A DNA stretch of 64,000 nucleotides from Rhodovarius crocodyli (GTDB lineage Bacteria; Pseudomonadota; Alphaproteobacteria; Acetobacterales; Acetobacteraceae). Where the stretch lies: the NCBI RefSeq assembly GCF_004005855.1, contig NZ_SACL01000001.1, forward strand, positions 930,001-994,000, given 5' to 3'. The position numbers were made by a program, and so were the translations under genes. The notes below the pieces were generated by a model. It worked only from the letters and a program-made list of their open reading frames with translations. It made no database searches and had not been told where the DNA came from. Position 1 is the first letter of the stretch; each line of letters opens with the position of its first letter. Positions 3,076-52,020 of the stretch are shown piece by piece.

Positions 3076-3196
3076 ATCCAGCCTCCCCCGCTAACCGATC
3101 CGCCATACGGGCAAAGTGGCACGCGGCCAAGGGGTTCCCGTGGGGGTTGCTTGCCCGGCCGCGCGGGTGAAGCATGCGGGAAACGGAGAAACCGCC

Positions 3197-4702
3197 ATGC
3201 CCTATACCCCGCCCGAGCACACCATTCAGCATTGGCAGGTGCGCAAGCCCGCCGCCCGGGGCAAGGGTGGCATGGTCGCGAGCCAGAGCCGCGATGCGGC
3301 CGAGGTGGGCCAGCACATCCTGCGCGCCGGCGGCACGGCGGCCGATGCGGCGGTGGCCGCGGCCTTCGCGCTCGCCGTGGTGGAGCCCTGGAACAGCGGG
3401 TTGGGCGGCATCGGCTTCACCCAGGTGATGAAGCCCGGCGGCAAGCCGGAGACCTTCGATTTCGGCCCCGTCTCACCACGCGGCCTCGACCCCTCCGCCT
3501 ACAGGTTGACGGGCAGCGTGGCGTCCGACCTGTTCGGCTGGCCCGAGGTGGTGGGCGATGTGAACATCCATGGCGCGAAAAGCTTCGCCATTCCCTCGGC
3601 CGTCGCCGGCTACAGGCTGCTGCATGAGCGCCACGGCCGCATGCCGATCAAGGAGCTGCTGGAACCCGCCGTGGCGCTGGCGAAGCGCGGGCTTTCCAAG
3701 GACTGGTTCACCACCGTGAAGGTGGCCGCCAGCGCGCCCATCCTGAAGCTGTATGAGGAATCATCCCGCATTTACCTGCCGGGCGGCATGCCGGTGATCG
3801 GCCCCTATCAGGGCAAGCCCGGCTACTTCCGCCAGGGCCGCCTGGCCGACACGCTGGAACGCCTGCAGCACGCGGGGCTCGACGATTTCTACAAGGGCGA
3901 CGTGGCGCGCGCGATCGTGGCCGATGTGCAGGCGATGGAGGGTTTCCTCTCGGCCGAGGATCTGGCCCACTGCGAGGCCCGCGTGCTGCCGGCCATCCTG
4001 CGCGAATGGAAGGGGCGCACCCTGGCGCTGGCGAACGGCCTGACCGCCGCGCCCACCCTGCTGGAAGTGCTGCGCCAGATGGAGAAGGTGCCCTATGGCG
4101 CCGTGCCGGATGCCCAGTGGTACGCGGCCCTGGCGCGGGCCATGCGCGCCGCCTATGCCGACCGCCTGGCAGGCTTGGGCGATGCCGAGCCCGCGGCCGC
4201 CGAAAGCTGCACCACCCACCTGACCGTGGCGGACAAGGACGGGATGATGGTCTCCATGACCACCACCCTGCTGTCCAGCATGGGCAGCCGCACCGTGCTG
4301 CCGGGCACGGGCATCCTGATGAACAACGGCATCATGTGGTTCGACCCGCGCCCCGAGGCGAAGAACGCCATCGCCCCCAGCAAGCGCCCGCTGTGCAACA
4401 TGTGCCCGGTGATCGCGCTGAAGGACGGAGAGCCCGAGATCGCCGTCGGTGCCTCCGGCGGACGGCGCATCATGGCCGCGGTGTTCCAGATGTACTCCTA
4501 TGTCGCGGATTTCGGCCTGGACCCGGAAGCCGCCGCCCACCTGCCGCGCCTGGACGTCAGCAGCCCCGAAGGCGTGACCGCCGACCGCCGCCTGGGCCCC
4601 GATGTGCGGGGGGGCCGGGGCTTTGCCCCGGACCCCACCAAGGGGCTCCGCCCCCTGGGACCCCCGCCAGGAGCCAGTGGCCCCTGGACCCCCTCGAGTT
4701 AA
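3197..4702 (+). CDS. Gamma-glutamyltransferase family protein with element-derived C-terminus
   Basis: The ATG at 3197 follows GGAG with good spacing; the frame extends further upstream but without a ribosome site. The product (501 aa) has the N-terminal nucleophile fold of gamma-glutamyltransferases, which self-cleave before a Thr. The candidate is T339 in CTTHLTVADKDG, followed by NNGIMWFDPRP and the glycine loop ASGGRR. There is no signal peptide, so it belongs to the cytoplasmic-type branch. From about residue 473 the frame runs into the multi-hairpin element at 4615-4863 (GPDVRGGRGFAPDPTKG... proline-rich tail), so the usual last 30-40 residues are lost and replaced. It may be active or a decaying gene; activity is uncertain. 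Confidence 0.85.
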   Translation: MPYTPPEHTIQHWQVRKPAARGKGGMVASQSRDAAEVGQHILRAGGTAADAAVAAAFALAVVEPWNSGLGGIGFTQVMKPGGKPETFDFGPVSPRGLDPSAYRLTGSVASDLFGWPEVVGDVNIHGAKSFAIPSAVAGYRLLHERHGRMPIKELLEPAVALAKRGLSKDWFTTVKVAASAPILKLYEESSRIYLPGGMPVIGPYQGKPGYFRQGRLADTLERLQHAGLDDFYKGDVARAIVADVQAMEGFLSAEDLAHCEARVLPAILREWKGRTLALANGLTAAPTLLEVLRQMEKVPYGAVPDAQWYAALARAMRAAYADRLAGLGDAEPAAAESCTTHLTVADKDGMMVSMTTTLLSSMGSRTVLPGTGILMNNGIMWFDPRPEAKNAIAPSKRPLCNMCPVIALKDGEPEIAVGASGGRRIMAAVFQMYSYVADFGLDPEAAAHLPRLDVSSPEGVTADRRLGPDVRGGRGFAPDPTKGLRPLGPPPGASGPWTPSS

Positions 4703-4863
4703 CTGAAAGTGTGGGGAAGGGGCTGTGAAGGACCGGTGGGTCGGGGGGCGCTCTGTGCCCCTTCCCCACACTTTCAGCTCCCGGTTTCCAAAGGCCTTTC
4801 GGCCTTTGGTGGGGGTGCCGGGGGCAAAGCCCCTGGCTGGGGGTTCGGGGGCGACGCCCCCGG
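4615..4863. repeat. GC-rich multi-hairpin element, type A copy 1, with 21-bp inverted repeat
   Basis: Six or seven hairpins in a row: 4615-4631 (CCGGGGCTTTGCCCCGG), about 4639-4655, about 4666-4688 (CCAGGAGCC...), a perfect 21-bp inverted repeat with arms 4703-4723 and 4757-4777 separated by 33 nt, then CCAAAGGCCTTTCGGCCTTTGG (about 4788-4809), and two more G/C stems to 4863. It lies between convergent ggt and the Bug receptor gene and its first 88 bases are translated as the end of ggt. The copy at 9697-9939 has the same order of parts. Confidence 0.85.
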
Positions 4864-4871
4864 TCCAACCC

Positions 4872-5831
4872 TCAGTCCGGCAGCAGCCGTGCCCGTTCGA
4901 TCACCCCGGCCCAGCGTGTGGCGTCGGCGCGCAGGCGTTGGCCGAGGTATTCGGGCCCGGTGTCGGAGGGTTCGATGCCCAGGGCGTTCAGGTGGCCGGC
5001 CAGTTCTTCGTCGCGCAGGGCTTGGCGCAGGGCGGTGTTGATCTTGGCCACCAGTTCCTCGGGCGTGCCGCGCGGGGCGAACAGGCCGTGCCAGCCCACG
5101 GCGTCGGCGTTGTTCAGGCCGGCCTCGGCGAAGGTCGGCACATCCGGCAGGGCCTGGGTGCGGGCCGGCGAGGACACGACGACGCCCTTGAGGCGCCCGG
5201 CCTTCACGTGGTCGGTCACGGCGCCGATGTTGATCATGACGCCTTGCAGGGACCCGCCCATCAGGTCCTGCAGGGCCAGGGCGCCGCCGCGATAGGGGGC
5301 GTGGGTCCACTGCACCTCAGACGCATCCTGAAGCTGCTGTTGCAGCAGGTGGGACAGGCTGCCGTTGCCCGGCGTGCCCACGGCGACGGGGCGGCCCTTC
5401 GCCAGTTCCACAAATTGCGAAAGTGTATTGACCGGGCTGTTGGCCGCCACGACCAGGATCTGCGGCACGCGCGCGGCCTCGGCCACCGGGGTGATATCCT
5501 CCACCGGGTCGAAGTTCAGGCGGCGGAACAGACCCTTGTTGATGGAGAGGCTGTCGCTGCCCGCGCCCAGCACGTAGCCATCGGGGCGGGCGCGCACCAC
5601 GGCCTCATAGCCGATGTTGGAGCCCGCGCCGGGCAGGTTTTCCACCACCACGTTCTGGCCCAGCACCGGGCCCATGTGGCGGGCGAACAGCCGCGCCACG
5701 ATGTCCTGGCTGCCGCCCGGCGCCACGGGCACCAGCAGGCGGATGGGCTTTTCCGGCCAGGCCTGCGCGCGGGAGACGGCGGGCAGCGCCAGTACGGCGG
5801 CGGAGGCGGAGAGGAGGGCGCGGCGGAACAT
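4872..5831 (-). CDS. Bug/TctC family periplasmic tricarboxylate-type receptor
   Basis: A 319-residue exported protein. The N-terminus has Arg residues, a hydrophobic core and a cut site near SRA|QAWPEKP. The mature start WPEKPIRLLVPVAPGG, the ENLPGAGSNIG block and LPDVPTFAEAG are diagnostic of Bug receptors, the extracytoplasmic solute-binding proteins of tripartite tricarboxylate transporters, which bind carboxylates. No TctA or TctB membrane gene is nearby, so this is an orphan receptor, common in this group and in betaproteobacteria. It is transcribed alone, convergent with ggt and divergent from the peroxiredoxin gene. The ligand cannot be read from the sequence. Confidence 0.92.
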   Translation of the reverse strand: MFRRALLSASAAVLALPAVSRAQAWPEKPIRLLVPVAPGGSQDIVARLFARHMGPVLGQNVVVENLPGAGSNIGYEAVVRARPDGYVLGAGSDSLSINKGLFRRLNFDPVEDITPVAEAARVPQILVVAANSPVNTLSQFVELAKGRPVAVGTPGNGSLSHLLQQQLQDASEVQWTHAPYRGGALALQDLMGGSLQGVMINIGAVTDHVKAGRLKGVVVSSPARTQALPDVPTFAEAGLNNADAVGWHGLFAPRGTPEELVAKINTALRQALRDEELAGHLNALGIEPSDTGPEYLGQRLRADATRWAGVIERARLLPD

Positions 5832-5839
5832 GCGGTGTA

Positions 5840-5865
5840 ATTATCGCATTAAAACGCCTTGTCAA
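5840..5865 (-). promoter_or_regulatory. Candidate promoter of the Bug receptor gene
   Basis: On the minus strand an exact TTGACA lies at 5865-5860 and GATAAT at 5845-5840. The 14-nt spacer is short for a sigma-70-type promoter; TAATTA, two bases further on, gives 16 nt. Transcription would start almost at the ATG (5831), implying a very short or absent leader. The stretch is AT-rich against its surroundings. Confidence 0.35.
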
Positions 5866-5927
5866 CGTGATTTAGAAAAGGCACTCTCCAGACAGAGGAA
5901 AACCACTCACACGGCTTGGAGTTTTCG

Positions 5928-6557
5928 ATGTCCTTGCAGCTTGGCCAGATCGTGCCCGATTTCGAGGCCGAGACCACCCAGGGCCGTCTCCGCTTCCATG
6001 AATGGATCGGCGACAGCTGGGCGGTCCTGTTCAGTCATCCCAAGGACTTCACGCCCGTCTGCACCACCGAGCTGGGCGAGACCGCCCGGCTGAAGCCCGA
6101 GTTCGACCGCCGCAACACCAAGGTGATCGGCCTGTCGGTGGATACGCTGGACCGCCATGCCGGCTGGGAGGCCGACATCGCGGAAACCCAGGGCCACGCC
6201 GTGAATTTCCCGATGATCGCGGACCCGGAGCGCAAGGTCGCCACGCTCTACAACATGATCCACCCGGAGGCCGACCCGTCCGTGACGGTGCGCGCGGTCT
6301 ATGTGATCGACCCGAAGAAGAAGCTGCGCCTCAGCTTCCTGTATCCGCCCTCCACCGGGCGCAATTTCCAGGAAGTGCTGCGCGTGATCGACAGCCTGCA
6401 GCTGACCGACCGCGCGAAGCTGGCCACCCCGGTGAACTGGCAGCCCGGCCAGCGCGCGATCATCGTGCCCAGTGTTTCGGACGAGGACGCGAAGCAGCTG
6501 TTCCCGCAGGGGTGGGACGCGGTGAAGCCTTACCTGCGCTACGTCGAAACGGCTTAG
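5928..6557 (+). CDS. Peroxiredoxin, 1-Cys (Prx6-like) type
   Basis: The 209-residue protein reduces hydrogen peroxide and organic hydroperoxides in the cytoplasm. The start ATG at 5928 follows GGAG at 5917-5920. The peroxidatic cysteine is C45 in FTPVCTTELG, preceded by SHPKDFTPVC as in the Prx6 subfamily, and the C-terminal extension (KLATPVNWQPGQ... then FPQGWDAVKPYLRY) is typical of this class. No second resolving cysteine is evident, so reduction would depend on an outside thiol. Its stop codon overlaps that of the convergent rrf2-type gene by four bases, so the two transcripts must overlap. Confidence 0.93.
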   Translation: MSLQLGQIVPDFEAETTQGRLRFHEWIGDSWAVLFSHPKDFTPVCTTELGETARLKPEFDRRNTKVIGLSVDTLDRHAGWEADIAETQGHAVNFPMIADPERKVATLYNMIHPEADPSVTVRAVYVIDPKKKLRLSFLYPPSTGRNFQEVLRVIDSLQLTDRAKLATPVNWQPGQRAIIVPSVSDEDAKQLFPQGWDAVKPYLRYVETA

Positions 6558-6997
6558 ATCACGAAGCTGATCGGCTCGCTCGGCGCCGGCGTCAGGCCGG
6601 CGGTCGCGGCGCGCCGCACCAGCCTGTCCAGCGTGATGGCGTCGAAGCGCGCCAGCGTCTCCTCCTCCATCTCCGCCCAGAAGGGTGCGACGACCTGGGT
6701 GAACAGCGGGCTGCTCTCACCCTCGTCCGCTTCCTCCTTGCCGGCGATGACGGCGCGGATGATCTCACCCACCGAAATGCCCCGGCGCGGCCGCGCCAGG
6801 CGATAGCCACCCGAAGGGCCACGCGTGGAATTGAGCACCCCGGCACGCGACAGCGGTTGCAGGATGGGCTCCAGCCCGCGCCGGGCCAGGCCCAGCCGTT
6901 CCGCTATGTCGGCGGCGGAAACGGTGCCCCGCCCGCCGTGCAGCGCCACATCCACCACCACCGCGATCGCCAAAGCCGGCCTTCCTTGCAGCAGCAT
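6554..6997 (-). CDS. Rrf2 family transcriptional regulator without Fe-S cysteines
   Basis: A 147-residue protein with the Rrf2 winged helix: VSAADIAERLGLARRGLEPILQ (recognition region, about residues 26-47), then the wing STRGPSGGYRLARP. IscR and NsrR members carry three cysteines for an Fe-S cluster after the wing helix; this protein has no cysteine at all, which places it functionally nearer CymR-like members. It is divergent from cysK-cysK-cysE with 78 bp between start codons, so control of cysteine synthesis is the natural inference. An AGGGGG precedes the ATG at 6997. A dyad in the shared gap may be its operator. Confidence 0.85.
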   Translation of the reverse strand: MLLQGRPALAIAVVVDVALHGGRGTVSAADIAERLGLARRGLEPILQPLSRAGVLNSTRGPSGGYRLARPRRGISVGEIIRAVIAGKEEADEGESSPLFTQVVAPFWAEMEEETLARFDAITLDRLVRRAATAGLTPAPSEPISFVI

Positions 6998-7014
6998 TCC
7001 TGAACCCCCTCTGT

Positions 7015-7029
7015 GAAACGCGGTGTTTC
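7015..7029. promoter_or_regulatory. Dyad between rrf2-type gene and cysK, candidate operator
   Basis: GAAAC-GCGGT-GTTTC is a 5-bp inverted repeat with a 5-nt spacer in the 78-bp divergent gap. CATAAT at 7035-7040 could be a -10 box for cysK. The arms are short, so the assignment as the regulator's binding site rests mainly on position. Confidence 0.35.
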
Positions 7030-7075
7030 CCACCCATAATACACTCACTCGGTTCGTGATAAGGGAGAACCGCCG

Positions 7076-8086
7076 GTGGATACGCCCGTCGATACCAAAA
7101 AATCCCCGATCGCCGCAGGTCTGCTCGGCGCCATCGGCAACACCCCGTTGATCCGGCTGGAGCGCGCGAGTGCGGCCACCGGATGCGACATACTCGGCAA
7201 GGCCGAGTTCATGAACCCCGGGGGCAGCGTGAAGGACCGCGCGGGCCTCGCCATCATCCAGGACGCCATCGCCCGCGGCACGCTGGCGCCCGGCGGCACG
7301 GTGGTGGAAGGCACGGCCGGCAATACCGGCATCGGCATCACGCTGGTGGCCAACGCCCTTGGTATTCGCAGCGTGATCGTGATGCCGGAAACCCAGAGCC
7401 AGGAAAAGATCGACTTCCTGCGCATGATCGGCGCCGACCTGCGGCTGGTGCCGGCCAAGCCCTATAAGGACCAGGGCAACTACGTCCATGTCTCCCGCCG
7501 GCTGGCGGAGGAGAATGGCTGGACCTGGGCCAACCAGTTCGACAATTTGGCCAACCGCGAGGGCCACCGCCTGACCACGGGCCCCGAGATCTGGGAACAG
7601 GCGGGCGGGCGCATCGACGCCTTCACCACCAGTTGCGGCACGGGCGGCACGCTGGCCGGCGTGGCCATGGCGCTGAAGGAACGCGACCCCAACATCCGCG
7701 TGACGCTCGCGGACCCGATGGGCAGCGTGCTGTATTCCTGGAAGACCAACGGCACGCTGGAAATGTCCGGCGGGTCCGTCACCGAGGGCATCGGCCAGGG
7801 CCGCGTGCCGGAAAACCTGAACGGCGCGCCGATCGACGACGCGCTGCAGGTGACCGATGAGGAAGCCCTGGCGCAGGTGTTCGACCTGACGCAGCACGAA
7901 GGCATTTGCATCGGCGGCAGCGCCGGGATCAATGTGGCCGCTGCGATCAAGGTGGCGAAGCGCCTCGGGCCCGGGCACCGCGTGGTGACCATCCTGTGTG
8001 ACGGCGGCGCGCGCTATCAGTCGAAGCTGTTCAACCCGGAATTCCTCCGTTCCAAGAACCTGCCGGTGCCGCCATGGATGCTCTGA
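7076..8086 (+). CDS. Cysteine synthase family PLP enzyme (first paralogue)
   Basis: This 336-residue protein is a beta-family PLP enzyme of the O-acetylserine sulfhydrylase/cystathionine beta-synthase group, making cysteine from O-acetylserine and sulfide. K53 in GGSVKDRAG forms the internal aldimine, CGTGGT binds the phosphate, and the substrate loop reads EGTAGNTGIG in place of the usual EPTSGNTGI. The start is GTG 7076 behind GGGAG. It is less canonical than its downstream neighbour, with a longer C-terminus (GGARYQSKLFNPEF) and a changed substrate loop, so a different sulfur or amino acceptor is possible. It overlaps the next gene by 13 bp. Confidence 0.88.
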   Translation: MDTPVDTKKSPIAAGLLGAIGNTPLIRLERASAATGCDILGKAEFMNPGGSVKDRAGLAIIQDAIARGTLAPGGTVVEGTAGNTGIGITLVANALGIRSVIVMPETQSQEKIDFLRMIGADLRLVPAKPYKDQGNYVHVSRRLAEENGWTWANQFDNLANREGHRLTTGPEIWEQAGGRIDAFTTSCGTGGTLAGVAMALKERDPNIRVTLADPMGSVLYSWKTNGTLEMSGGSVTEGIGQGRVPENLNGAPIDDALQVTDEEALAQVFDLTQHEGICIGGSAGINVAAAIKVAKRLGPGHRVVTILCDGGARYQSKLFNPEFLRSKNLPVPPWML

Positions 8087-9048
8087 CCCCTTCACCCGCC
8101 ACCTTCCGCAACCGCATCTATGACAGCGTGCTGGACACGGTGGGCGCGACCCCGCTGGTGCGCCTGCCGCGCATCTCGGCCGAGGACGGGCTGAAGGCCG
8201 ACCTGCTGATGAAGCTGGAGTTCTTCAACCCGGCGGGGTCCGTGAAGGACCGCATCGCGCTGGCCATGGTGCGCGCCGCCGAGGCCGCGGGCACCATCAG
8301 GCCCGGCCATTCCGTCATCATCGAGCCGACCTCGGGCAATACCGGCATCGGGCTGGCCTTCGTCGGCGCCGCGCTGGGTTACCGGGTGATCGTGACGATG
8401 CCGGAAGGCGCCTCGATCGAGCGGCGGCGCATGATGCGGCTGATGGGCGCCGAGTTGGTGCTCACGCCCTCCGCCCAGGGCATGGGCGGCGCCATCGCCA
8501 AGGCCGAGGAGATCGCGGCCAAGACCCCCGGCGGCTGGATCGCGAAGCAGTTCGACAACCCCGCCAACCCCGACATCCACGCCGCTACCACGGCCGAGGA
8601 GATCTGGGCCGACACCGCCGGAGAGGTGGACATCATCATCGGCGGCATGGGCACCGGCGGCACCATGACGGGCATCGCCCGCGCGCTGAAGCCCCGCAAG
8701 GCAGGGCTGAAGGTGCTGGGCATCGAGCCCGCCGAGAGCGCCATCCTGCACGGCGACGACCCGGGGCCCCACGGCATCCAGGGCATCGGCCCCGGCTTCA
8801 AGCCCCGCGTGCTGGAACTGGATCTGCTGGACGGCGTGGAGACCGCCACCGAGCGCGACGCCATCGCCACCGCCCGCCGCGCCGCCCGCACCGAGGGGCT
8901 GGCCATCGGCATTTCCTCCGGCGCCTGCCTGGCGGTCGGGCTGCGCCTCGCGGCCCTGCCGGAAAACACCGGCAAGCGCATCGTCTGTATCACCCCCTCC
9001 TTCGCGGAACGCTACCTCTCGACGGCGCTATTCCAAGGATTGGAGTGA
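8074..9048 (+). CDS. cysK: Cysteine synthase A
   Basis: A canonical 324-residue O-acetylserine (thiol)-lyase: PLP lysine K58 in AGSVKDRIAL, asparagine loop EPTSGNTGIGLAF, phosphate loop GMGTGGTMTG and the C-terminal GISSGACLAVG. It converts O-acetylserine and sulfide to cysteine in the cytoplasm. It starts inside the end of the first paralogue and its TGA overlaps the ATG of cysE, so all three are translationally coupled. In many bacteria CysK and CysE form the cysteine synthase complex; the CysE C-terminal tail here does not end in Ile, so complex formation is not assured. Confidence 0.93.
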   Translation: MDALTPSPATFRNRIYDSVLDTVGATPLVRLPRISAEDGLKADLLMKLEFFNPAGSVKDRIALAMVRAAEAAGTIRPGHSVIIEPTSGNTGIGLAFVGAALGYRVIVTMPEGASIERRRMMRLMGAELVLTPSAQGMGGAIAKAEEIAAKTPGGWIAKQFDNPANPDIHAATTAEEIWADTAGEVDIIIGGMGTGGTMTGIARALKPRKAGLKVLGIEPAESAILHGDDPGPHGIQGIGPGFKPRVLELDLLDGVETATERDAIATARRAARTEGLAIGISSGACLAVGLRLAALPENTGKRIVCITPSFAERYLSTALFQGLE

Positions 9049-9689
9049 TGGAACTCATCGAACTCGGCCGATCGATACGGGACAGAGACCCCGCCCGGCC
9101 CACCTGGTTCGAAGTCATCTTCAGCTACCCCGGCGTGCATGCGGTGCTGTGGCACCGGCTGGCCCACCGCCTCTACGGCTGGGGCCTGCCCGGTGCCGGG
9201 CGCTTCATCTCCCACCTCTCCCGCTTCCTGACCGGCATCGAGATTCACCCGGCGGCCCGCGTCGGCCGGCGGCTGTTCATCGACCACGGCATGGGGGTGG
9301 TGATCGGCGGCACGGCGATACTGGGCGACGACGTCACGATCTATCAGGGCGTCACCCTCGGCGGCCTCAGCCTGAAACCCGGCAAACGCCACCCGGACGT
9401 GCTGGACGGCGCCGTGATCGGCGCCGGCGCCCATGTCCTCGGCCCCATCACCGTGGGCCGCAAGGCGCGCGTGGGCGCCAACGCCGTGGTGGTGGAAGAC
9501 GTGCCCGAAGGCGTGACGGTGGTGGGCATCCCGGCCCGCGCACCGGCGCAGAGCACGGGCGCCACCGTGGGCTACGGCATGCCACGCGACCGCGACATCG
9601 ACCCGCTGGGCGAGGAAATCGCCCAGATCCGCGCCGAGCTGGAAGCACTGAAGGCGCGGATGGAGACGAGGGTGGCTGCTGGGGGGTGA
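9048..9689 (+). CDS. cysE: Serine O-acetyltransferase
   Basis: The 213-residue protein transfers acetyl from acetyl-CoA to serine, giving the O-acetylserine used by CysK. The C-terminal half is a left-handed beta-helix of hexapeptide repeats (IEIHPAARVGRRLFIDHGMGVVIGGTAILGD region), with catalytic His residues in IDHGMGVVIG and GKRHPDVLDGAVIGAGAHVLG. The ATG at 9048 overlaps the cysK stop (TGATG). It is the short form, lacking the long N-terminal helical domain of E. coli CysE. The C-terminal end (MRTRVAAGG-like) lacks the terminal Ile that normally plugs the CysK active site, unlike the standard complex-forming enzyme. Confidence 0.93.
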   Translation: MELIELGRSIRDRDPARPTWFEVIFSYPGVHAVLWHRLAHRLYGWGLPGAGRFISHLSRFLTGIEIHPAARVGRRLFIDHGMGVVIGGTAILGDDVTIYQGVTLGGLSLKPGKRHPDVLDGAVIGAGAHVLGPITVGRKARVGANAVVVEDVPEGVTVVGIPARAPAQSTGATVGYGMPRDRDIDPLGEEIAQIRAELEALKARMETRVAAGG

Positions 9690-9696
9690 GGCGCAC

Positions 9697-9939
9697 CCGG
9701 GGGTTTCACCCCCGGACCCCGACCAGGGCTCTGCCCTGGACCCGCCAGGAGCCTGTGGCCCCTGGACCCCCATGAGTTATCCGAAAGGTTGAGGAGGGGG
9801 CAGCAAGCGGCCCCCTGGCCCAACACGCGCCACCCGCCCCCTCCTCAACCTTTCGGCTCCCGGTTTCCAAAGGCCCTTCGGCCTTTGGTGGGGTGCAGGG
9901 GCAAAGCCCTTGCCGGGGGTCAGGGGGCGGAGCCCCCTG
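9697..9939. repeat. GC-rich multi-hairpin element, type A copy 2, with 21-bp inverted repeat
   Basis: It has the same order of parts as 4615-4863: CCGGGGG/CCCCCGG stem (9697-9715), an AGGGC/GCCCT stem, CCAGGAGCC...CCTGG, then GAGTTA followed by a perfect 21-bp inverted repeat (arms 9781-9801 and 9836-9856, 34-nt spacer), the shared CCCGGTTTCCAAAGGCC...GGCCTTTGG hairpin, and two closing G/C stems to 9939. Its arms differ from the other copy at five positions, all compensated. It sits between convergent cysE and dinG, whose last codons and stop are inside the final hairpin. Confidence 0.85.
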
Positions 9940-24152: not shown

Positions 24153-24159
24153 GCGCTGC

Positions 24160-24358
24160 GGGGGCCTTGCCCCCGGAGCCCCCGCGCAGGGGCGCTGCCC
24201 CTGCACCCCGCCAGGAGATAATATCTCCTGGACCTGATAGGAGTTTGGCGCCTTCGCTGGATAAGCGGGGCGCCTTTTTTATTATTAAAATCAATCGGAA
24301 AAATCTTGGCAGGGTTGGGTGCCAAGTGCCTGGGGTCCAGGGGGCAGCGCCCCCTGGT
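24160..24358. repeat. GC-rich multi-hairpin element, type B copy 2 (convergent junction)
   Basis: This copy lies between aspS and the convergent Bug receptor gene. It repeats the part order of 681-933: GGGGGCCTTGCCCCC, then CAGGGGCGCTGCCCCTG (the outer pair is C-G here and G-C in the other copy), CCAGGAGATAATATCTCCTGG, a GTTTGGCGCC stem with T-run, a conserved AAAATCAATC, a GCCAAG block, and a closing CCAGGGGG/CCCCCTGG hairpin at 24338-24358. Confidence 0.78.
24247..24280 (+). terminator. Intrinsic terminator after aspS
   Basis: GGCGCC (24247-24252) pairs with GGCGCC (24269-24274), with CGCT/AGCG pairing inside the loop, followed by six T residues (24275-24280). This sits at the same place in the element as the terminator at 768-804. 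Confidence 0.75.
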
Positions 24359-24362
24359 CTGC

Positions 24363-51098: not shown

Positions 51099-51728
51099 TT
51101 ACTTCTTGCCCTTGCCCTTGCCCTTGGCGGGGGCGGCGGCCTGCGGGGCCACGATCTCTTCCACGACCGGCGCGGCGATGGTCGCCACCACGAAGTCGCG
51201 GTTGATCGTCGCCTTGGTGCCGGCCTGGTCCTTCACGGCGGACCAGCGCAGGGTGGCGCCGATCTCGGCCTCGGCCAGGTCGATCTCGAAGTGCTCGGGC
51301 ACGCTCGCGGGCGCGGCCATCACCTCGATCGCGCGGCGCACGACGTTCAGCGTGCCGCCCTGCTTGATGCCGGGGCAGGTGTCTTCGTTGAGGAAGACGA
51401 CCGGCACGCGGATCTTCAGGCGGGCGCCGGCGGACAGGCGCTGGAAGTCGATGTGGATCGGGCGATCCGTCACCGGGTGGAACTGGATATCGCGCATCAG
51501 CACGGTTTCCGTCTCACCGCCCTCGACAACCACCTCATACAGGTGGGACTGCCAGGAGCCCTTGTGCATTTCCTTCATGATGACGCGGGGATCCAGCTGG
51601 ATCAGCGCCGCATCCTTCTTGGCGCCATAGATGACACCGGGCACAAAGCCCTCACGCCGGGTCGCACGCGCTGCCCCCTTACCAGCATTCGCGCGCGCCG
51701 CAGCTTCGATCCGAACGGTTTGGACCAT
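51099..51728 (-). CDS. rplY: Ribosomal protein L25, Ctc type
   Basis: The 209-residue protein is the long L25/general-stress (Ctc) form. The N-terminal L25 domain (EAAARANAGKGAARATRREG to HPVTDRPIHIDFQRL) binds 5S rRNA and the C-terminal TL5-like domain (VRVPVVFLNED to ATINRDFVVATI) follows; the end is Ala/Lys-rich (PAKGKGKGKK). It is in the same transcription unit as pth and ychF. The 292-bp gap upstream holds a long palindromic element but no obvious gene. Confidence 0.95.
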   Translation of the reverse strand: MVQTVRIEAAARANAGKGAARATRREGFVPGVIYGAKKDAALIQLDPRVIMKEMHKGSWQSHLYEVVVEGGETETVLMRDIQFHPVTDRPIHIDFQRLSAGARLKIRVPVVFLNEDTCPGIKQGGTLNVVRRAIEVMAAPASVPEHFEIDLAEAEIGATLRWSAVKDQAGTKATINRDFVVATIAAPVVEEIVAPQAAAPAKGKGKGKK

Positions 51729-51900
51729 TGCGGTTGCTCCTCAAATACGAATGAAACCGCCCTGCCTCGCGAGCATGGGCGATCGCGCCGGCCTCCAGGG
51801 GTGCCAGCGCGGGGGCGGTGTAGCGGGGGAAAAGCCCAGGCGCAACCTGGGATCGCGCATGGGTGGGGTGATGGGACGGGATGAGGCCCGATAGAATAGC

Positions 51901-52018
51901 CTTCTTTTTCTGAAGAAAAAGAAGCAAAAAGACTTTTCGAGTTTAGTGCATCCTGCCTTTGGTCAGGAACTCCATTAAACCCTCAAAAGTTTTTTGGTTC
52001 TTTTTTCCAAAAAAGAAC
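51901..52018. repeat. 118-bp MITE-like palindromic element
   Basis: The left end (hairpin CTTCTTTTT/AAAAAGAAG at 51901-51924 followed by CAAAAAGACTTTT) and right end (AAAAGTTTTTTG followed by hairpin GTTCTTTTTT/AAAAAAGAAC at 51997-52018) are imperfect inverted repeats of ~35 bp. The interior (GAGTTTAGTG...CCTG against CAGG...CATTAAACCCTC) also pairs, so the whole element folds back on itself. It carries no ORF. On the minus strand it may also terminate the MFS gene, which stops 3 bp away. Confidence 0.7.
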
Positions 52019-52020
52019 AG

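Follow-up and report, generated by a model that had tools for sequence, protein, structure and literature searches.

Hairpin arrays in the window and in the genome

The window analyzed here is a 64,000-nt stretch of the Rhodovarius crocodyli genome (G000; 5.27 Mb, 48 contigs), and it holds two copies of an intergenic element in which a long perfect hairpin stands among smaller hairpins at the ends of converging genes. These are two of at least 44 copies in the genome. Copy 1 lies between a truncated gene that matches gamma-glutamyltranspeptidase (ggt; 3167–4702) and a minus-strand TctC-family gene (stop at 4872–4874), and copy 2 lies between a plus-strand hexapeptide transferase gene (stop at 9687–9689) and a minus-strand helicase-family gene (stop at 9920–9922). 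As a preliminary description of this DNA had reported, each copy contains a perfect 21-bp inverted repeat whose arms are 100% complementary, at 4703–4723 and 4757–4777 with a 33-nt spacer in copy 1 and at 9781–9801 and 9836–9856 with a 34-nt spacer in copy 2. Where the arms of the two copies differ (positions 2, 8, 9, 12, and 16), the opposite arm matches every difference. Complementarity and the family alignment, joined for copy 1 by covariation, assign both central hairpins (4703–4777 and 9781–9856) to the group termed class I below.

The downstream flank CTCCCGGTTTCCAAAGGCC is indeed common to both copies, and a 19-mer search allowing up to three mismatches found two sites in the window and none in 100 shuffles. 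The GAGTTA motif precedes both hairpins (4696–4701, where the TAA that ends the truncated ggt frame, at 4700–4702, overlaps it, and 9774–9779), but it is not strict across the family, in which GAGTCT, CAGTTA, GAGATA, and other forms occur. The spacers had been called unrelated, which describes the window pair well (13 of 33 aligned bases shared) but not the family, in which 35 copies (595 pairs) have a mean spacer identity of 0.54, versus 0.28 when shuffled.

The element had also been taken to consist of the inverted repeat and its flanks. The repeat is real, but the unit is larger, with the repeat at the center of an array of smaller hairpins (H1–H6) read from the sequence. In copy 1, H1 (4615–4631), H2 (4638–4658), and H3 (4667–4687) stand to the left of the long hairpin, and H4 (4788–4809; CCAAAGGCCTTTCGGCCTTTGG), H5 (4817–4837), and H6 (4846–4862) stand to the right. 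In copy 2, H1 (9697–9715) begins 7 nt past the transferase stop and is followed by H2 (9723–9739) and H3 (9745–9765), with H4 (9867–9888), H5 (9895–9913), and H6 (9921–9939) on the other side, the last overlapping the final codons of the helicase-family gene. H4 of both copies was also recovered by the 19-mer search. This is the usual plan of a copy, three small GC hairpins on either side of one long hairpin, and by reading, the right-hand hairpins are reverse-complement relatives of the left-hand ones. Arrays of this plan usually extend across the gap from one stop codon to the other. CCCGCCA...TGGCGGG-like ends were also seen by reading when the arrays were compared with MITEs, which have terminal inverted repeats and a target-site duplication.

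To count copies, we searched the genome with the 20-mer GCTCCCGGTTTCCAAAGGCC, which begins at the last base of the right arm, and allowed up to three mismatches. This yielded 47 sites, versus 0 for the reversed control, and the central long hairpin is present at 42 of them; the five sites left out (L026, L042, L043, L045, and L047) carry the right-hand motif without it. A covariance model added two copies that have another right flank, one between ++ genes (L314) and one between convergent genes (L315). Class I comprises 35 of the 42 copies and has arms of 20 to 21 bp and a spacer of 33 or 34 nt in 32 copies (31, 32, or 35 nt in the other three), whereas the seven copies of class II have a 3-nt loop and longer A and T tracts. 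Near-identical centers are found at separate loci, and the distribution is patchy: on contig C11, the stretch from 55.4 kb to 934.7 kb is free of the 47 sites, eight of which are located past it. A shorter pattern has two sites inside that stretch, at 211.7 and 274.2 kb.

No known RNA family was recognized: the Rfam search of the window gave no match above the gathering score, and five loci gave only sub-threshold matches to microRNA families. The element is undescribed in the literature searched, although subscription papers were outside its coverage and absence is therefore unproven.

Gene context was assigned with a home-made codon model rather than a standard gene caller. Among the 42 copies, 35 lie between convergent genes, three between ++ genes, and three between -- genes, and one has no upstream gene in reach, so that 35 of 41 classifiable copies are convergent. 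The background in a 464-kb sample is 17 convergent gaps among 177 gaps of at least 60 nt (binomial p = 6e-30). The convergent gaps span 169–384 nt around the 29 class I copies, of which 23 fall within 255–269 nt, and 203–257 nt around the six class II copies, and in 26 of the 35 convergent copies the stop codons are 90 to 102 nt to the left and 84 to 104 nt to the right of the long hairpin. Called genes contain no long hairpin, although in each window copy small hairpins run into the end of a neighboring gene.

Arrays occupy every one of the window's four convergent gaps of 60 nt or more. In two of these (672–933, where the outer hairpins are similar, and 24153–24362) the center is different and, by reading, alike in both. 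This second center type (TTTGGCGCC... with an A/T-rich middle) also occurs in the neighboring 400 kb, at L195:18445–18838 and L197:19452–19726. The latter two (338445 and 379452 in the 464-kb census, respectively) are the hits judged real by reading among six outside convergent gaps with two or more matches to the crude pattern by which the census detected arrays, and they occupy one -- and one ++ gap. Separately, an AT-rich gene-end repeat family (GTTCTTTTTT...AAAAAAGAAC, CTTCTTTTTC...GAAAAAGAAG) occupies several convergent gaps and one -- gap in L179–L198 (C11:530001–930000) and window positions 51645–52020.

Stem pairing and the age of copies

In the class I alignment of 35 sequences, 97.8% of 731 cells are paired, and double changes are found at 11 of the 21 pairs. 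None of 500 shuffles reaches the observed value on any of five covariation measures, and versions slid out of register are at most 61.6% paired. Some copies are recent duplicates, as an origin of the covariation in chance or mere kinship would have it; however, all shuffled and slid versions fall far below the data, and the differing arms of other species still pair, which leaves this explanation with a negligible probability. The proposal that pairing is maintained thus holds across many copies and species. Its corollary, that the pairing and not the bases is kept, does not, because the inner stem is conserved too and its 5′ side is G-rich in 42 of 42 genome copies. Note that a figure of 95 G-rich stems of 95 is not independent evidence, since the 53 stems from relatives were preselected by model shape and a GGGG 5′-arm filter. 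At one locus in another genus (L171) the 5′ arm of the long hairpin is not G-rich, and a G-rich 5′ arm is therefore no general rule.

Arms that differ without compensation had been named as evidence that would count against maintained pairing, and to some extent they exist: 17 of the 42 copies have at least one non-Watson–Crick pair (25 stems are perfect, 12 have one such position, and five have two), and recent duplicates differ almost exclusively by unmatched changes. The 22 non-Watson–Crick cells comprise six G.T, five A.C, and 11 others when L024 and L044 are read in a 20-bp register (otherwise five G.T and six A.C). Equal frequencies of G.T and A.C are expected if both strands matter or if DNA pairs, and an RNA element that works on one strand only is accordingly disfavored, as G.T is no commoner than A.C. 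Among Bacillus terminators, 68 of 76 resolved switches between A-U and G-C went through G.U (PMC5381666). Here, the 50 double-changed cells, which are not independent events, divide into 32 of transition type and 18 of transversion type, and those 18 have no route through G.U. Mismatches of T.C and G.A occur at arm position 9.

Copies of different ages give a view of the order of events. The 13 of 595 pairs with a spacer divergence below 0.2 show two compensated and 25 uncompensated pair differences, with both compensated differences in the pair L022/L039, although few independent events are represented because 10 of the 13 pairs come from a single cluster (L001, L003, L018, L027, and L029). 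In four bins of higher divergence, compensated and uncompensated differences number 218/153, 369/221, 562/294, and 202/99, or about 59 to 67% compensated. Within the five-copy cluster, divergence per site is 0.050 in the arms, 0.067 in the spacers, and 0.039 in the right flank. Young pairs are mostly uncompensated, which indicates that unmatched changes come first and matching later. This pattern agrees with selection acting slowly, with copying between arms, or with renewal from copies that pair well and does not separate them, so that the original suggestion of selection or a copying mechanism stands with both options retained.

The second of these options can be framed as pairing repair at the DNA level, in which one arm of an imperfect palindrome is copied from the other by template switching during replication, with no selection on RNA. 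Unmatched changes in recent copies give way to compensated ones in diverged bins, the arms of the young cluster change about as fast as its spacers and yet 25 of 42 stems are perfect, and 18 of 50 double-changed cells cannot have passed through G.U, all of which such repair would explain. Template switching has been proposed for RNA genes with near-perfect stems and matched changes like those seen here (PMC8794818), but there it was inferred for RNA genes, whereas the loop of our array is long and template switching in it is only a proposal. Moreover, 10 of the 13 young pairs are one five-copy cluster, the mismatches at arm position 9 would also fit stepwise change, and this mechanism predicts neither the conserved G-rich inner stem nor the position after stop codons. 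We regard it as rather unlikely, albeit compatible with the functional reading presented below.

Probable copying among sites and the arrays of relatives

A related genome (G072), which we take by name to be R. lipocyclicus CCUG 44693 of the same genus, served as the main comparison. From an RLDVS-type motif to the stop, ggt encodes 71 residues in six relatives and 51 here, and the last 31 of those 51 residues are a translation of the hairpin array. Nucleotide homology to G072 stops at about position 4605, some 10 bases ahead of H1. The end of homology and the residues translated from hairpins indicate that an array either entered ggt or became fused to it as the gene end was lost. A search of G000 for the lost tail of 51 residues, run without a positive control, did not find it. 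Elsewhere in G000, the gene that neighbors ggt in G072 has no more than a 51% relative; this proves little, because two other genomes (G141 and G188) also lack a close relative and yet keep the tail. At a second site, the one present/absent pair that was found, an array with neither a class I nor a class II center lies just past a stop codon in G072 (L224) and none lies at the orthologous position in G000 (L197), with one side read. At copy 2, the next gene looks different in G072, and in that genome the gap after the orthologue of the 9045–9689 gene (L200, past the gene end at 2148) holds a different long perfect hairpin.

Shared sites reveal an exchange of centers. At five of six aligned sites the center is class II in G072 and class I in G000, and at the sixth (L222/L020) it is class I in both; a seventh shared site (L220/L045) lacks the long hairpin in both genomes. 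The outer left hairpins at L221/L016 closely resemble each other in the two species while H3 and the center differ, and the inner part thus seems to have been replaced in place. Four more shared sites were found (L252/L031, L300/L017, L305/L011, and L306/L010), of which the last two were placed by one flanking gene. At four of the five shared sites with long spacers, identity between orthologues is 0.63 to 0.66, and 13 to 14 of 14 paralogues in G072 and 35 to 36 of 36 in G000 are closer. The exception is L222/L020, with an identity of 0.78 and closer paralogues numbering one of 14 in G072 and 25 of 36 in G000. Such a pattern is concerted evolution.

Recent copies do not share one unit. Clusters have H3, center, and H4 in common with differing outer hairpins, and L006 and L017 share a center without a common H3. 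Variable unit ends favor recombination between arrays over a transposon with fixed ends.

Among 200 genomes of the family, 17 (G000 counted) contain the right-hand small hairpin with at most one mismatch, and a shorter form of it is present in seven of nine genomes of the genus. The covariance model detects the element in eight of the nine genus genomes at E 0.001 and, with stricter filters, in 14 of 150 family genomes at E 1e-8, G000 being included in both counts. The stem is visible in 25 of the 30 loci L227–L256 within the stretch inspected, and 53 of 61 loci L257–L317 pass a filter for a 25 to 44-nt loop and GGGG in the 5′ arm (L264/L272 and L260/L276 are identical sites). By reading, the 16 sites inspected in G072 have a class I center in three cases, a class II center in 10, and neither in three (L217, L220, and L224). 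Copies from relatives retain an inner stem like GGGAGGGGGC and its complement, and the outer stem varies among species and copies while remaining paired with 0 to 2 mismatches, which is the limit of the tool. In other genera (L149 and L171), long perfect hairpins of unrelated sequence fill the slot beside a CCAAAGGCC hairpin.

These properties invite comparison with REP and BIME repeats (PMC3733652). The array resembles the GTAG/CGTC REPs and BIMEs as a many-copy intergenic palindrome in inverted groups, of which we count 42 copies, located mostly in convergent or unidirectional gaps. REP families likewise split into sub-families whose stems carry alternative but complementary residues, form inverted dimers separated by structured spacers, and are found in convergent gaps. 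The array differs in its central stem of about 21 bp, its 33 to 34-nt spacer, its usually six small hairpins per site, and its lack of excess G.T pairing. In a search for the exact tetranucleotides only, GTAG or CGTC tags are present in 0 of 42 copies in the 45 nt holding H4, and in the 50 nt holding H3, GTAG, CGTC, and GACG occur in three, one, and one of 42, respectively. A search for RAYT transposases (PF01797, Y1_Tnp) gave no match in G000 and was positive in five of 14 genomes as a control, which argues against a RAYT-driven REP, although the missing RAYT is not decisive since CGTC REPs have no dedicated transposase (PMC3733652). With BIME-like workings but neither tag nor RAYT found, the array is best described as a variant rather than a member of those superfamilies. 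The array is similar to a REPIN (PMC3116915) in that its copied unit may be a pair of inverted palindromes around a variable middle, but in our array the middle is itself a long hairpin, the outer hairpins are extra, the unit ends vary, and RAYT was not found.

Such repeats could also be purely selfish. Convergent gaps would then be the places where insertions survive, and the perfect hairpins would serve the repeat's own copying, which would still be compatible with a role at gene ends. The adjacency of copy 1 to a truncated gene, the species-specific copies, the near-identical centers at different loci, and the patchy spread would follow naturally. The nearly constant distances to stop codons in most copies, the swap of the L221/L016 center inside similar outer left hairpins, and the failure to find a Y1 transposase in G000 would not, and we consider a selfish repeat rather doubtful.

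A probable two-way signal at gene ends

Different centers in the same slot suggest a shared job, for which a two-way 3′-end hairpin would be the simplest candidate. We favor, with slightly better than even confidence, a REP/BIME-like array that is copied among sites and whose long hairpin acts as such a signal. The element is a dispersed modular palindromic array, in which small GC hairpins, usually three per side and inverted, surround one long hairpin, and it sits just downstream of stop codons, in R. crocodyli mostly between convergent genes. It would spread, or be overwritten, by copying, probably through recombination between arrays rather than by a dedicated transposase. Most likely, the long hairpin would form in RNA from both strands and end or stabilize the transcripts of both neighbors. 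Its pairing would probably be kept by selection on the hairpin, perhaps aided by repair that uses one arm as the template for the other.

Folding is consistent with this reading: as RNA, copy 2 has a better fold on either strand than any of 200 shuffled versions (z = -6.1 and -6.6), an effect to which its small hairpins also contribute. Terminator-like sites are found on each strand of the only class II copy scanned (L008; two found versus 0.5 in shuffles, SD 0.6) and on each strand of the 24153–24362 array with its other center. Intrinsic terminators of Bacillus cereus, some of them bidirectional, show compensatory stem evolution (PMC5381666). The array matches them in its hairpin after convergent stops, its compensated stem changes, and the A and T tracts of class II, but it differs from them in the long spacer and missing U-tract of class I, in not having G.U as the main intermediate, and in being a repeat family that evolves in concert. 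The location between convergent stops expected of a bidirectional terminator is seen in G000 (35 of 41) and is mixed in relatives (21 of 49).

Several observations weigh against a two-way 3′-end signal. Both window copies (class I) yielded 0 U-tract terminator sites. The right-hand small hairpin often stands alone, with a long stem (at least 15 of 18 positions paired) beside it at 14 of 143 distinct sites (L048–L178, which include a few from G000 and G072). The 49 sites outside G000 comprise 21 +-, 12 --, nine ++, one -+, and six incomplete contexts, and in a genome whose name we take to be Neoroseomonas marina (G104), all six copies with two called neighbors are co-directional. The 400 kb to the left of the window contain 13 convergent gaps of 60 nt or longer, none of which scores more than one pattern hit in the first and last 60 nt inspected. 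Finally, convergent gaps could merely be where a selfish repeat does least harm.

Gyrase action is linked to convergent genes, and the element might instead serve as DNA, bound by a protein or by gyrase that relieves positive supercoils between such genes. Convergent placement and the 33 or 34-nt spacing in 32 of 35 class I copies would suit a site of this kind, and gyrase targets the REPs of Escherichia coli (PMC3733652). However, the outer arms differ wholly between species and copies, and a 3-nt loop replaces the spacer in class II, which makes a protein or gyrase site quite improbable.

More speculatively, and in our view improbably, the arrays might constitute a cassette system in which convergent genes are separated by a modular slot that receives different long hairpins, copied and recopied within the genome without a known transposase. 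Species sets would then be rewritten in concert, and pairing would be restored by arm-to-arm copying of DNA instead of stepwise selection on RNA. Whichever reading applies, dozens of copies of different ages in one genome amount to a natural experiment on the evolution of near-perfect stems, and they address whether selection on RNA or arm-to-arm copying of DNA eliminates mismatches. The exchange of centers at orthologous sites, in turn, asks how signals at gene ends become homogenized across a chromosome without a recognized transposase.

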